This document shows positions 36,788-42,709 of a stretch of 64,000 nt of DNA, in pieces. Source of the DNA: Alphaproteobacteria bacterium. Its GTDB lineage: Bacteria > Pseudomonadota > Alphaproteobacteria > Rhizobiales > Rhizobiaceae. Location of the stretch: contig BOKV01000001.1 in the NCBI GenBank assembly GCA_016861165.1, positions 62,001 to 126,000 on the forward strand, read 5' to 3'. Positions within the stretch are counted from its first letter, which is position 1, and every line of letters starts with the position of its first letter. Position numbers and translations under genes: made by a program. Below the pieces are notes generated by a model. It was not told the DNA's origin. It saw only the letters and a list, made by a program, of their open reading frames with translations, and did not search any database.

Positions 36788-39238
36788 ATGAAGAACGCGA
36801 AGCTTGCCGACTACCGCAGGAAACGCGATTTCGCCCGCACCGGCGAACCGCGCGGCGGCACGCCGGGCGACGCCGGGAATCGCTTCGTCGTCCACAAGCA
36901 CTGGGCCACCGCCGACCACTACGACCTGCGCCTGCAGGTCGGCGACGTGCTGAAATGCTGGGCGGTTCCGAAAGGCCCGTCGCTCGACCCCGACGACAAG
37001 CGGCTGGCGGTCGAGACGGAGGACCACCCGCTCGAATATATCGACTTCGAGGGCGTCATCCCGGCGGGACAATATGGCGGCGGGCCGATGATCGTGTGGG
37101 ACGCCGGGGTATGGGCGCCGATGGGCGATATCGGGGAGAGCCTCACCTCCGGCGCCTTCAAGTTCCGGCTGGCCGGCGAGAAGCTGAAGGGCGGCTGGAT
37201 GCTGGCGCGGCTGAAGCCCAGGGCCGGCGACAGCAAGCGCAACTGGCTGCTCATCAAGGAACGCGACGGCGCCGCCGACGCCACGGCCGACATCCTTGTC
37301 GCGCGGCCGGAGAGCGTCAGCAGCGGCCGGCACATCGAGGAGCTGATCGAAGCCGGCACGCCCGCCCGCGATCGCCAGCGGCCGGCGCCCGGGCGGGTTG
37401 CCGGCGCAGTCAGGGCGCCGATGCCGCCGCGTGTCCTGCCGCAGCTTGCCACCCGCGTCGACCGGCCGCCGCCCGGCGAGGGCTGGCTGCACGAGATCAA
37501 GTTCGACGGCTACCGCACCATGGCGATGATCGAGGGCGGCGGTGCGCGACTGATCACCCGCGGCGGGCTCGACTGGACGCGCCGCTACGGCGATCTGGCG
37601 CCGGCGCTGGCCGCCCTGCCCTGCCGGCAGGCGGTGATCGACGGCGAGATCGTCGTGCCCGACGGGAAGGGCGTGACGAGCTTCGCCGCCCTGCAGCAGG
37701 CGCTGGCGGAAGGCACGGCCGGCCGCCTCGTCTACTACGCCTTCGACCTCGTCCACCTCGACGGCTGGGACTTGCGCGCGGTGGCGCTTGCGAAGCGCAA
37801 GGCGCTGCTGGCGCAACTGCTCGCCGGCCATGTATCGGCACGTTCGGCCGTCCAGTACAGCGACCATGTCGCCGGCGGCGGCGCAGCCATGTACGAGCGC
37901 GCGGCCGAGATGGGCCTGGAAGGCATCGTTTCCAAGCAGGCCAACGCTATCTACGAAGAGGGCCGGTCGCGGTCGTGGCTCAAATCGAAGGCGCTGAAAT
38001 CCGGCGACTTCGTCATCGCCGGGTACACAATTTCGGAGGCCGCCGGGGGGCTCGGCGCGCTGGCGCTGGGCGAATGGGAGGACGGCGAACTGCGCTATCG
38101 CGGCAAGGTCGGCACGGGTTTCGACGCCGGCACGCTGTCGCTGCTGCTCAAACGGCTGCAGCCGCTGCGCGACGAGGCGGCGCGGCTCGACGGCGCGCCC
38201 CGGGACATCATTGCGGTGCGGCCGGTCCTGTCGGCGCATGTCCACTATGCCAACCGCACGGCCGACAACGCGCTGCGCCATGCCGTCTACAAGGGATTGA
38301 GGGAGGCCGAATTGTCGGGCAACCAGGGTGCCGGGCGCAAGCGCCTGATCTCGGACGCCGACCTGGCGGCGATCTGGGTGACCAACCCGACGCGGCGCAT
38401 GTTCGGCAAGTCCGGACCGACCAAGCTGGACGTTGCGGTCTACTATGCGGCGGTGGGCGATTTCATGCTGCCGCACCTCATCGGCCGGCCGGTGTCGCTG
38501 GTGCGTTGCCCGAGCGGGCGGCCGCAGGACTGCTTCTTCCAGCGTCACGCCTTCGCCGGCATGCCGGCGGCGGTCGCCACCTTCGAGACGACGGATTCGG
38601 ACGGCGAGACCAAGCGGTATCTGACGATCGAGGGGGCCAAGGGCTATCTGGCGCTCGCCCAGTTCGGCGTCGTCGAATTCCACGTGTGGGGCACGACCGC
38701 GAAGCGCCTGGAGAAGCCCGACCGCGTGGTCTTCGACCTCGACCCCGGGGAAGGCGTGGCCTGGCGCGAGGTGGTCGAGGCGGCCACCCACATCCGCGGC
38801 GAACTGGAGGCGCTGGGTCTGGCGGCGTTCGTCAAGACATCCGGCGGCAAGGGCGTCCACGTCGTCGTGCCGGTGAAGCCGACGCTTGCCTGGAAGCAGG
38901 TGCACGACCGCACGGGGCAGATCGCCGCGGCGATCGCCGCCGGCGCGCCCGACACCTTCACCACCAACATGGCCAAGCAACAGCGCAAGCGGCGCATCTT
39001 CATCGACTTCCACCGCAACGCGCGCGGCGCCACGGCGGTGGCGCCCTATTCGCTGCGCGCCCGCACCAACCTGCCCGCGTCGACACCGCTTTCCTGGGCG
39101 GATCTCGAATCCATCGACGCTCCGGAGGATTTGAACTACTCTTCCCTTCCGGGGTTGTTAACCGCTTCCGGCGATCCTTGGGCGCTGATCGCGGATTTCG
39201 CCAGGGCGTTGCCGGCCGTCGGCACCGCCAGGAAGTAG
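36788..39238 (+). CDS. ligD: DNA ligase D (PE-Lig-Pol)
   Basis: RFVVHKHWATADHYDLRL (PE), HEIKFDGYRTMAMI (ligase), C-terminal Pol domain (KLDVAVYYAAVGDFMLPHLIGRPVSLVRCPSG). Confidence 0.95.
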   Translation: MKNAKLADYRRKRDFARTGEPRGGTPGDAGNRFVVHKHWATADHYDLRLQVGDVLKCWAVPKGPSLDPDDKRLAVETEDHPLEYIDFEGVIPAGQYGGGPMIVWDAGVWAPMGDIGESLTSGAFKFRLAGEKLKGGWMLARLKPRAGDSKRNWLLIKERDGAADATADILVARPESVSSGRHIEELIEAGTPARDRQRPAPGRVAGAVRAPMPPRVLPQLATRVDRPPPGEGWLHEIKFDGYRTMAMIEGGGARLITRGGLDWTRRYGDLAPALAALPCRQAVIDGEIVVPDGKGVTSFAALQQALAEGTAGRLVYYAFDLVHLDGWDLRAVALAKRKALLAQLLAGHVSARSAVQYSDHVAGGGAAMYERAAEMGLEGIVSKQANAIYEEGRSRSWLKSKALKSGDFVIAGYTISEAAGGLGALALGEWEDGELRYRGKVGTGFDAGTLSLLLKRLQPLRDEAARLDGAPRDIIAVRPVLSAHVHYANRTADNALRHAVYKGLREAELSGNQGAGRKRLISDADLAAIWVTNPTRRMFGKSGPTKLDVAVYYAAVGDFMLPHLIGRPVSLVRCPSGRPQDCFFQRHAFAGMPAAVATFETTDSDGETKRYLTIEGAKGYLALAQFGVVEFHVWGTTAKRLEKPDRVVFDLDPGEGVAWREVVEAATHIRGELEALGLAAFVKTSGGKGVHVVVPVKPTLAWKQVHDRTGQIAAAIAAGAPDTFTTNMAKQQRKRRIFIDFHRNARGATAVAPYSLRARTNLPASTPLSWADLESIDAPEDLNYSSLPGLLTASGDPWALIADFARALPAVGTARK

Positions 39239-39256: not shown

Positions 39257-40135
39257 ATGGCGCCAAGAGCAAGCTGGAAGGGCTTCCTCAAGCTGAGCCT
39301 GGTGAGCTGCCCGGTGCGGCTCTATCCGGCGACGAGCACGCGCGACCGCATCACCTTCAACCAGCTGCACAAGGATACCCACAATCGGATCAACATGAAG
39401 CCGGTCGATCCCGAACTGGGCCTCGTCGAGCGCTCCGACCTGGTGCGCGGCTACCAGTACGAGGACAAGCAGTACGTCATCATCGATGATGCCGACCTCG
39501 AAAGCGTGCGGATCGAATCCACCCACACGATGAACATCGAGGCCTTCGTCGACGCCGACGCCGTCGACGTGATCTACCAGGACGCGCCCTATTATCTGGC
39601 GCCGGACGGGGCGATGGCCGAGGAAACCTTCATCGTCCTGCGCGAGGCCATGCGCAAATCGGGCAAGCTGGCGATCGCCAGGCTGGTGCTGTCGAGCCGG
39701 GAACGCGTCATCACCATCGCGCCGCGCGAGACCGGGATGTTCGTCTGCACGTTGCGCAACCCCAACGAGGTGCGCGGCACGGCCGAATATTTCGGCTCGA
39801 TTCCCGTCGGCAATCCCGACCCGGAAATGCTGGAACTGGCCGAGCGGCTGATCGAGCAGAAGGCGACCCGGTTCGATCCCGACAACTACGAGGATCGCTA
39901 CGAGACCGCGCTCATGAACATGATCAAGGAGAAGCTCAAGGGCCACAAGCCGATCGTGGCGGCAGCGCCCGAGCGGGGCAATGTCATCAACCTGATGGAC
40001 GCGTTGAAGGCCAGCCTGTCGCAGGCCAAGCCGCCCGCCGCCAGCAAGACCCGCAAAGAGGCGCGGCCGGCCGCCGAGGCGGCCACGGCCGGCGGCAAGG
40101 GCGCGCCGAAACGACCCGGCCGGAAGAAGGCGTGA
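39257..40135 (+). CDS. ku: NHEJ protein Ku
   Basis: SWKGFLKLSLVSCPVRLYPATSTRDRITFNQLHKDTHNRI; Lys-rich tail; next to ligD. Confidence 0.95.
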   Translation: MAPRASWKGFLKLSLVSCPVRLYPATSTRDRITFNQLHKDTHNRINMKPVDPELGLVERSDLVRGYQYEDKQYVIIDDADLESVRIESTHTMNIEAFVDADAVDVIYQDAPYYLAPDGAMAEETFIVLREAMRKSGKLAIARLVLSSRERVITIAPRETGMFVCTLRNPNEVRGTAEYFGSIPVGNPDPEMLELAERLIEQKATRFDPDNYEDRYETALMNMIKEKLKGHKPIVAAAPERGNVINLMDALKASLSQAKPPAASKTRKEARPAAEAATAGGKGAPKRPGRKKA

Positions 40136-41223
40136 GCGGCGTCGCCGGCATCAGCTTCGGCATCCTCGGGCCGCTCGCGGCCTTCCCCCGTCGGCTCGCC
40201 GCGCGCGAGGTCGCGCGTCAGCACGGACGTCTGCGAAGCGGCGTCACCCGCCGTACCACCGTCGTCGTCTTCGGCCGGCGGCTGCTCGATCGTGTCGGCG
40301 AGGCGGAGATCGCTGGGCGCCACGACGAGCAGCGCCGCGCCGGCCGCGCGGCGATCAGCGAGAACGGCTTCCTGCGGCGGCTTGGCGTGCTGGCGACACC
40401 AGCCGACGGCACGCTTGAACGATCCGCGCTCATTGAGCAGTCGCGGCTGCCGGCGCGCGATTTCGACCTGCTCTGCCTGTTCGACGCTTTCGAACATGAT
40501 TGCGAACCGTTTTCGTTCCGTGACCTCATCCTGGCGAAGAAATATGCCGGGCTGATCGCCGGCGGCGCGAGCTGGGCCGCCATTGCCCGGTCGGTGCACC
40601 GGGCGACCGGCACGGTCGCCTCGTTGACGGCACTGTCGCTTGAACGGCAGGGCCGCGACGCCATCCAGGCGCGCCTCGGCGGAGACTTGAGCGAACTGGA
40701 CGGCCAGCTGCTGCTGCCGATCGGGCGGGCTGGTGACGACGAACTCGAACAATGCTTCGAAGCGGCCGAGGACGCCGAGGCCGAGCAGCGCTTTGACGAC
40801 GCGGCACGGCTGTACGAACGCTGCCTGGCGATCGATCCGGCCGACGCGGTGGCCGCGTTCAACCGCGCCAACTGCCTCACGGCGGCCGGCAGGCGTGCGG
40901 CCGCCCGCAGCGCCTATCTGGAGGCGCTCAAGCTCGATGCCGAATTCGCCGAGGCCTGGTTCAACCTCGCCGGCCTCGACCGCGAGGACGGCCGCACGGA
41001 GACCGCCCGCCGCCACCTTGAGCGGGCGATCGGCGTCGATGCCGACTATGCCGACGCCGTCTACAACCTCGCCACGCTCGAATTCGATGCCGGCGGACTG
41101 GCGCGGGCGCGGGTCTTGTGGGCGCGTTATCTGGAACTGGACACCGGTTCCGACTGGGCCCGCAATGCGGCGCGCGGCATCCGCTTTGTCGACCTCGAAC
41201 TGGCGCAGCGCAGCGCCGGCTGA
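40132..41223 (+). CDS. BRCT-like / HTH-like / TPR protein, co-operonic with ku
   Basis: GTG start overlaps ku stop (GTGA); N-terminal FGILGPLAAFPRRLAAREVARQHGRLRSGVTRRTTVVVFGRRLLD, then TPRs. Confidence 0.7.
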   Translation: MSGVAGISFGILGPLAAFPRRLAAREVARQHGRLRSGVTRRTTVVVFGRRLLDRVGEAEIAGRHDEQRRAGRAAISENGFLRRLGVLATPADGTLERSALIEQSRLPARDFDLLCLFDAFEHDCEPFSFRDLILAKKYAGLIAGGASWAAIARSVHRATGTVASLTALSLERQGRDAIQARLGGDLSELDGQLLLPIGRAGDDELEQCFEAAEDAEAEQRFDDAARLYERCLAIDPADAVAAFNRANCLTAAGRRAAARSAYLEALKLDAEFAEAWFNLAGLDREDGRTETARRHLERAIGVDADYADAVYNLATLEFDAGGLARARVLWARYLELDTGSDWARNAARGIRFVDLELAQRSAG

Positions 41224-41225
41224 AG

Positions 41226-41873
41226 ATGGGCGGCCGCTTCATCGTCGACGGACCGGCGCACGCGCCAGCGACCATCCTGCTGGCCCACGGCGCCGGTGCG
41301 CCGATGGATTCGGCGGCGATGAACGCGGCCGCGGGGGCCCTGGCCGACGCCGGCCTGCGCGTCGCCCGCTTCGAGTTCGCCTACATGGCCGGCCGGCGCG
41401 GCGCAGGCGAGCGCAAGCCGCCGCCACGCGCCGAGACGCTGATGCCGGAATACGAGGCCGCTATCGACGATCTGCGCCCCGACGGCCCGCTCGTCATCGG
41501 CGGCAAGTCGATGGGCGGACGCGTCGCCAGCATGATCGCCGACCGCATGCTCGATCAGGGGCGGATTCGCGGCCTCCTCTGTCTCGGCTATCCCTTTCAC
41601 CCGCCGGCCAGTCCGACGCGGCTGCGCACCGGCCACCTCGCGCATCTGCGGACGCCGGCGCTGATCTGCCAGGGCACGCGCGACCCGTTCGGCACCCGCG
41701 CCGAGGTCGCCTTCTATGCGCTGTCGCCGGCGATCGAATTGCTCTGGCTCGAGGACGGCGACCACGACCTGAGGCCGCGCAAGTCGGATTCCGGCTTTTC
41801 GGCGGCCGACCACCTGCGCACCATGGCGGCAACCGCCGCCGCCTGGGTCGACCGGATCGCACCGCCGCGATGA
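41226..41873 (+). CDS. Alpha/beta hydrolase (KANL3/Tex30-like)
   Basis: ILLAHGAGAPMDSAAM; VIGGKSMGGRVASMIADR. Confidence 0.85.
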   Translation: MGGRFIVDGPAHAPATILLAHGAGAPMDSAAMNAAAGALADAGLRVARFEFAYMAGRRGAGERKPPPRAETLMPEYEAAIDDLRPDGPLVIGGKSMGGRVASMIADRMLDQGRIRGLLCLGYPFHPPASPTRLRTGHLAHLRTPALICQGTRDPFGTRAEVAFYALSPAIELLWLEDGDHDLRPRKSDSGFSAADHLRTMAATAAAWVDRIAPPR

Positions 41874-42709
41874 AGATCGCCACCTACAACGTCAACGGCG
41901 TCAACCGGCGGCTCGCCAACATCCTCGACTGGTTCGCCAGGGCCGAACCCGACATCGCCTGCCTGCAGGAACTCAAGGCCACCGACCGGCAGTTCCCCCG
42001 GTCGGCCTTCGAGGCGGCGGGCTATGACGCGGTCTGGCGCGGCCAGTCTGCCTGGAACGGCGTCGCCATCCTGTCGCGGATTGGCGAACCGGTGCTGACC
42101 CGCACGGAGCTGCCGGGCGACACGGAGGACGGGCAGGCCCGCTACATCGAGGCGGCGGTGGCCGGCATCCTCGTCGCCTCGTTCTACGCGCCGAACGGCA
42201 ACCCGCAACCCGGACCGAAATTCGACTACAAGATCGCCTGGAACGAGCGGCTGATCGAGCACGCGCGGTCGCTGTTCGCCGCCGGCGTGCCGGTGGTGCT
42301 GGCGGGCGACTACAACATCGTGCCGGAGCCGCGCGACATCTATGCGACGCGATCCTATGACGACAACGCGCTCGTACAGCCGCAGAGCCGCGCCGCATTC
42401 GCGCGGCTGCGCGAGCAGGGCTGGGTCGACGCGTTGCGCCAATGCCATCCGGACGAGACGCTCTACACCTTCTGGGATTACAAAAGGAACCGCTGGCAGC
42501 GCGACGCCGGCCTGCGCCTCGACCACCTCCTGCTCAGCGCCGCGACCGCGCCGCGCCTCATTGGCGCCGGTGTCGACCGCGACGAGCGCGGGCGCGACGG
42601 TGCCAGCGATCACGCCCCTGTCTGGATCGAACTGAAGGACGAGCCTTCCTGCCGGCTGGAGAGAGCCGGCGGAGGCCAGGCAACACGGCCTCGGGCAAAG
42701 CAATCTTAA
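41870..42709 (+). CDS. xth: Exodeoxyribonuclease III
   Basis: MKIATYNVNGVNRRLANILDWFARAEPDIACLQELKATDRQFP; GDYNIVPEPRDI; SDHAPVWIEL. Confidence 0.93.
   Translation: MKIATYNVNGVNRRLANILDWFARAEPDIACLQELKATDRQFPRSAFEAAGYDAVWRGQSAWNGVAILSRIGEPVLTRTELPGDTEDGQARYIEAAVAGILVASFYAPNGNPQPGPKFDYKIAWNERLIEHARSLFAAGVPVVLAGDYNIVPEPRDIYATRSYDDNALVQPQSRAAFARLREQGWVDALRQCHPDETLYTFWDYKRNRWQRDAGLRLDHLLLSAATAPRLIGAGVDRDERGRDGASDHAPVWIELKDEPSCRLERAGGGQATRPRAKQS

Follow-up and report, generated by a model that had tools for sequence, protein, structure and literature searches.

The window, the whole stretch of 64,000 nucleotides that was analysed, contains a plus-strand operon in which a gene for a 363-residue protein directly follows ku. 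The genes of this operon and the features of the third gene are as follows.

36788-39238, plus strand: ligD, the first gene of the operon, encoding a PE-LIG-POL DNA ligase D (Pfam LigD_N, DNA_ligase_A_M/C and LigD_Prim-Pol; NCBIfam TIGR02776).
39257-40135, plus strand: ku (TIGR02772, 280 bits; PF02735).
40132-40135, plus strand: GTGA, the 4-nt overlap of the ku stop codon (TGA, 40133-40135) and the start of the third gene, from the sequence.
40132-41223, plus strand: third gene, encoding a BRCT-MerR-like-TPR protein of 363 amino acids with a GTG start (open reading frame, homologues, model).
40144-40407, plus strand: BRCT domain, residues ~5-92 (PDB profile search, AlphaFold2 model, Foldseek).
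40414-40611, plus strand: degenerate MerR-like helix-turn-helix, residues ~95-160 (MerR_1 in relatives, betaproteobacterial MerR profile).
40612-40731, plus strand: linker with a beta hairpin ending in a conserved GQ.L motif (model strands 169-173, 177-182 and 185-187).
40732-41220, plus strand: four TPRs and a C-terminal capping helix, residues 201-363 (Pfam TPR_19, 2.5e-13; AlphaFold2).
41226-41873, plus strand: alpha/beta hydrolase, the fourth gene (PF20408).
41870-42709, plus strand: xth-like gene of the exonuclease III / AP endonuclease family, the fifth gene (PF03372, 3.3e-27).

The start codon of ku is probably the ATG at 39257 (MAPRASWKG...), the listed open reading frame opening earlier, at a TTG (39239). 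As in the original prediction, the third gene begins with a GTG overlapping the stop codon of ku, and the resulting GTGA reads as translational coupling of the third gene to ku. Stop-start overlaps of 1 or 4 nt between the two genes were found in 13 of the 36 measured family loci, several start codons in the locus set having been picked by eye. The ATG of the xth-like gene also overlaps the hydrolase stop codon by 4 nt. Over its full length, the protein encoded by the third gene shares 51-63% identity with its homologues from Mesorhizobium, Devosia, Amaricoccus and Sinorhizobium. Comparison of the window with seven homologues gave mismatch frequencies of ~0.25-0.31, 0.21-0.28 and 0.49-0.57 at codon positions 1, 2 and 3, respectively. 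Mismatches are thus lowest at the first two positions and about twice as frequent at the third, indicating that this reading frame is under protein-level selection, and the pattern also holds inside the BRCT and HTH parts taken separately. A chance or antisense open reading frame (39898-41016, minus strand) was ruled out by this conservation and codon-position pattern. No EcfG-type GGAAC-N15-18-CGTT motif was found in the window, and none of the PADLOC defence models matches the operon.

At the C-terminus of the protein, TPR_19, TPR_11, TPR_17, TPR_2 and TPR_14 score above the Pfam cut-offs, and no other domain does. The AlphaFold2 model of this part consists of helices over residues 202-362 with pLDDT mostly above 92, so that the C-terminal TPRs of the original prediction are confirmed by both approaches. 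The nearest folds to the TPR part in Foldseek were found to be those of OGT and designed consensus TPRs. Three consecutive TPRs have an asparagine at the equivalent position (Asn244, Asn278 and Asn312), conserved in 29, 28 and 28 of 29 members of the family, respectively; in OGT, such an asparagine ladder binds the peptide backbone. In the preceding linker, Q192 of the near-invariant GQ.L motif is invariant in 29 sequences.

Since single-sequence Pfam and NCBIfam searches show TPRs only, detection of the N-terminal BRCT domain required profiles. A single-sequence search of the window protein gave no match to Pfam BRCT. Individual members of the family do match it, namely 6 of 14 close homologues and 9 of 29 diverse members (best E 5.4e-4), with scores of 17-19 bits that are below the gathering cut-off of 21.3. 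A profile of the first 98 residues, built from the 14 close homologues, matched three of 177,635 PDB sequences, all of them BRCT domains (LigA 9vse and RFC1 2ebu/2k6g; E 0.005-0.05). A profile of 29 members gave E-values of 2.7e-6 for RFC1 and 3.7e-6 for LigA, and its ten best PDB matches are RFC1 or LigA only (E 2.7e-6 to 0.1). The same profile matches LigA-sized open reading frames at BRCT positions in most of 264/299 Pseudomonadota genomes; one such match that was read out is LigA (L082), and another is a DnaQ-type exonuclease with a BRCT domain (L081). Those A4/A6 profile matches that are plain BRCT domains of other proteins (such as L081 and L082) were left out of the linkage counts given below.

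Foldseek with the full-length model returned only TPR proteins among the matches listed, and the N-terminal 203 residues were therefore modelled separately. The AlphaFold2 model of residues 1-203 (mc8000d977e8d) has a pLDDT of 92.4, mostly 93-98 over residues 11-90, and a pTM of 0.88. It contains a four-stranded sheet with flanking helices in the order b-a-b-b-a-b-a (b1 8-12, a1 20-29, b2 33-35, b3 44-47, a2 57-69, b4 73-76, a3 77-83), and BRCT structures make up the overwhelming majority of its Foldseek matches, with that of RFC1 in first place (1.3e-4). Profiles and structure prediction together indicate that the third gene carries a genuine single BRCT domain. The N-terminal BRCT assignment of the original prediction therefore stands, the absence of a BRCT fold on structure prediction being excluded by the model and Foldseek, whereas the extent of 45 residues given there was too short: the domain spans residues ~5-92, including the '...SENGFLRRL' segment.

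By sequence profile and by fold, the nearest relatives of this domain are the single BRCT domains of LigA and RFC1. It differs from these in having a longer b3-a2 segment, in being fused to a MerR-like HTH and TPRs instead of a ligase or clamp loader, and in its phosphate pocket. In the BRCT domains of RFC1 and BRCA1, the residue just ahead of the conserved b1-a1 Gly is a Thr or Ser that belongs to this pocket. In the present family, it is replaced by V, I or L in 28 of 29 members, and classical binding of phosphopeptides or 5'-phosphates is therefore not to be assumed. The one member with Thr is L077 (1447-2556), a divergent alphaproteobacterial protein with the gene order ku-gene-ligD, which keeps the Thr-Gly of the pocket, has the clearest MerR match and possibly lies near the ancestral form.

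The region between the BRCT domain and the linker, residues 95-160, looks like a worn MerR domain when its relatives are considered. MerR_1 is weakly matched in 2 of 29 members of the alphaproteobacterial set (E 0.004) and reaches the curated cut-off in the betaproteobacterial relative L098 (E 2.3e-4), and the betaproteobacterial MerR profile recovers L077 at 1.6e-6. The middle domain, searched by itself against the PDB, returned no useful match. The suggestion of an HTH in the original prediction is thus retained as a MerR-like domain, with its placement corrected to a start near residue 95.

The betaproteobacterial relatives were reached through one profile match outside the class, which led to a 264-residue MerR-TPR protein without a BRCT domain, encoded between ku and ligD. 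Further relatives were found on plasmids of Cupriavidus, Paraburkholderia, Caballeronia, Variovorax and Burkholderia, directly behind ku in 7/7 regions examined and in three layouts, including ku-gene without an adjacent ligD. Among 166 genomes of the class, all strong matches (E below 1e-28) were located behind ku. The weak matches to the MerR profile (E 1e-12 to 1e-4), none of them beside ku, are mostly in short frames of MerR length and were not counted. In total, the BRCT-less MerR-TPR relative lies directly downstream of ku in 13/13 betaproteobacterial loci, often on plasmids. Database annotation labels the family 'tetratricopeptide repeat protein', and NCBI names one betaproteobacterial member 'MerR family transcriptional regulator'. 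The betaproteobacterial genes (Cupriavidus, Paraburkholderia, Variovorax, Burkholderia) share with the alphaproteobacterial gene the MerR-linker-TPR arrangement with the GQ.L motif and the place behind ku. Unlike the latter, they lack the BRCT domain and have a basic, better preserved MerR domain.

Charge is divided alike in the two classes, with a basic N-terminal module and an acidic TPR part. In the alphaproteobacterial set, the net charge of the BRCT domain is +2 to +11 in 29/29 members (+9 over residues 1-92 of the window protein), that of the HTH is -7 to +2, and that of the TPR part is -6 to -15 in 28/29. In the betaproteobacterial proteins, the MerR domain carries +5 to +11 and the TPR part is acidic in 7/7. 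From these sequences, the BRCT domain seems to have taken over in Alphaproteobacteria the role of basic module played by MerR in Betaproteobacteria.

Seven loci (L113-L119) on plasmids of Cupriavidus, Paraburkholderia, Variovorax and Burkholderia, several typed as conjugative, carry ku-(MerR-TPR)-ligD cassettes, and some of these adjoin genes for transposases, ImuA/DNA polymerase Y, a NucS-domain endonuclease or an SOS-related peptidase. Such plasmid cassettes can be regarded as putative mobile NHEJ modules. Two of the loci (L117 4983-5927 and L119 4983-5801) contain ku and MerR-TPR with no annotated ligD within the surrounding 10 kb, and the ku/MerR-TPR pair thus appears to be separable from LigD.

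In Alphaproteobacteria, homologues of the third gene lie directly downstream of ku in 41/41 loci. At the order level, 18 of 298 genomes (9 of 118 genera) were found to carry the gene, directly downstream of ku in 18/18, a count inflated by close kin since eight of the 18 hits come from one genus. Ku itself is present in all 18 of these genomes, versus 138 of the 298 genomes of the order overall. A class-level search of 385 genomes added eight more distant members, 8/8 directly behind ku. The remaining 15 loci comprise twelve genomes (Mesorhizobium, Devosia, Amaricoccus and others), L003, and the inspected Pararhizobium and Sinorhizobium plasmids. Conversely, 20 Ku loci picked from Ku hits lacking the gene had a nearby copy in 0/20. 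Plasmids carrying the gene number 88, mostly from Sinorhizobium. No full-length member away from ku was found in the genomes and plasmids searched, which covered genomes within Pseudomonadota and, beyond that phylum, plasmids only. The accessory role in LigD-Ku repair put forward by the original prediction is strongly supported by this linkage in both classes, together with the result for the gene-less Ku loci.

The order ligD-ku-gene-hydrolase-xth was observed in 16/16 loci with enough flank, the window included, among them 12/12 of the twelve genomes plus L003. The hydrolase (PF20408) and the exonuclease III-family gene follow the BRCT-TPR gene in fixed order in Rhizobiaceae, Devosia and Amaricoccus; to our knowledge, neither has an assigned role in NHEJ. 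The distant alphaproteobacterial members have the layouts ligD-ku-gene or ku-gene-ligD, from which the hydrolase and xth are absent. Because the linkage persists whether the gene follows ku in ligD-ku-gene, in ku-gene-ligD or without an adjacent ligD, its partner is suggested to be Ku rather than LigD. In a Ku tree, one fully supported clade comprises 36 of the 41 gene-linked alphaproteobacterial Kus, and the betaproteobacterial Kus likewise group in a single clade. The other five gene-linked alphaproteobacterial Kus are placed among Kus without the gene, indicating that gains or losses occurred. At one further locus (L161, G090:C61:55750-58820), two Ku open reading frames lie side by side and the third gene is missing; the same genome has another Ku that is accompanied by the gene. 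The two adjacent Kus may form a heterodimer beside the BRCT-linked one.

From its domains and its linkage, we infer that the third gene probably encodes a dedicated Ku-coupled accessory factor or adaptor of bacterial NHEJ. The third protein would be made next after Ku from the ligD-ku operon. Its basic N-terminal module, BRCT in Alphaproteobacteria and MerR in Betaproteobacteria, would contact DNA near the end or another repair protein, and its TPRs, which form an acidic superhelix bearing the conserved asparagines, would hold an extended peptide. The combination of a basic module for DNA and an acidic peptide groove is in keeping with a protein that bridges Ku, LigD and DNA. As ligand of the TPRs, the disordered and basic Ku tail would be the simplest choice, or else part of LigD, and the adaptor might thereby keep Ku, the ligase and perhaps the exonuclease III-like enzyme of the operon together at the break. 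In Mycobacterium tuberculosis, the disordered C-terminus of Ku binds DNA and LigD (PMC9638933). The Ku tail is basic, with a median charge of about +9. No feature of tail length or charge specific to gene-linked Kus was found, and since unlinked Ku tails are equally basic, the Ku tail as TPR ligand is only a suggestion. Many NHEJ-positive genomes are without the gene, which is therefore not essential to NHEJ in general.

The same gene could instead encode a transcriptional regulator of the NHEJ operon, whose MerR-like domain would bind an operator while the BRCT and TPR parts would sense DNA damage or a partner. MerR is a classical regulator fold, the betaproteobacterial MerR domain is basic and includes the MerR_1 match at the curated cut-off, the NCBI name of one betaproteobacterial member points the same way, and a repair factor and a regulator cannot be told apart by gene order. 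However, the HTH of Alphaproteobacteria is no longer positively charged, MerR_1 is matched in only a few of their proteins, and the gene is found behind ku in every case, often with an overlap, and not at the head of the operon. We also know of no BRCT domain serving as a regulator module, and a regulatory role is considered unlikely.

The hydrophobic residue in place of the pocket Thr/Ser in 28/29 members, and the linkage to ku rather than to ligD or xth, argue against recognition of ends independently of Ku, in which the BRCT domain would bind 5'-phosphorylated ends as that of RFC1 does and the TPRs would recruit LigD or the Xth-like enzyme. This mechanism draws on RFC1 and LigA being the nearest BRCT relatives, on the existence of a PDB model of the RFC1 BRCT region with double-stranded DNA (2k7f), and on the basic charge of the domain in all members, and it appears quite improbable. 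Finally, the gene might be a passenger, carried along in the operon with ku while serving an unrelated function in the cell, given that the same operon holds a hydrolase without an obvious repair role. A passenger would hardly be expected to remain linked across both classes, in differing layouts and on plasmids, when the hydrolase and xth are missing from the distant layouts; moreover, BRCT is a repair-type domain and all full-length members found are beside ku. This explanation is therefore given very little credence.

With a Ku-coupled accessory protein as the preferred reading, the finding of a conserved BRCT-bearing gene always right behind ku means that a bacterial repair system taken to consist of two proteins probably includes, in many Proteobacteria, a third that has been overlooked. 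In the open-licence literature on Ku or LigD with BRCT, TPR or MerR, the gene is not described, and an earlier mention elsewhere is possible. BRCT and TPR both go unmentioned in a comparative study of the neighbourhoods of ku and ligD (PMC7719229), as they do in a Ku phylogeny of 2025 (PMC11936186). The ku genes of Mesorhizobium loti are heat-inducible (PMC3989490), and in Sinorhizobium meliloti NHEJ helps the cells to withstand ionizing radiation, peroxide and desiccation (PMC10932983, a review); the passages concerned do not mention the third gene. A third protein behind ku across two classes would change the Ku plus LigD picture for a large bacterial group, and the gene travels with ku on plasmids of Sinorhizobium, Cupriavidus and Paraburkholderia. 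Such a protein would also allow the help that a BRCT protein gives to Ku to be studied in a simple setting, and it is a candidate component for rebuilding the NHEJ of these bacteria elsewhere, e.g., in genome-editing tools. Direct testing is possible in the laboratory strain S. meliloti, in which the operon lies on pSym and for which NHEJ assays have already been published.

How does this protein compare with known NHEJ systems? Recent papers present bacterial NHEJ in their abstracts as Ku plus LigD only (PMC12784961, PMC13201618, PMC5124664), as do reviews and structural papers. The present system shares with this two-component NHEJ the operon and strand and adds a conserved third protein, predicted to be translationally coupled to Ku. 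With the BRCT-bearing proteins of eukaryotic NHEJ, Pol lambda, Pol mu, TdT and Lig4, it shares by analogy a BRCT domain working with Ku, but it has no polymerase or ligase domain and no specific kinship to them, and Foldseek matches it to Pol mu complexes only weakly (E 0.03-0.05). A BRCT-containing PolX of the Pol lambda type was rejected, as no polymerase X domain is present, Pfam finds only TPRs and residues 201-363 are TPR. The likeness to XRCC4, XLF and PAXX is one of role only, a possible bridging on Ku; a scaffold of this type was rejected because the predicted models contain no head domain or coiled coil. The special kinship to eukaryotic NHEJ scaffolds hinted at in the original prediction is thus not supported, the nearest BRCT domains being those of bacterial LigA and of RFC1, and it is further undercut by the missing polymerase and ligase domains. 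Overall, there seems to be about an even chance that many Alpha- and Betaproteobacteria carry out NHEJ with three components, that in Alphaproteobacteria BRCT took over from MerR as the basic module, and that bacteria thus arrived independently at an NHEJ factor with a BRCT domain.
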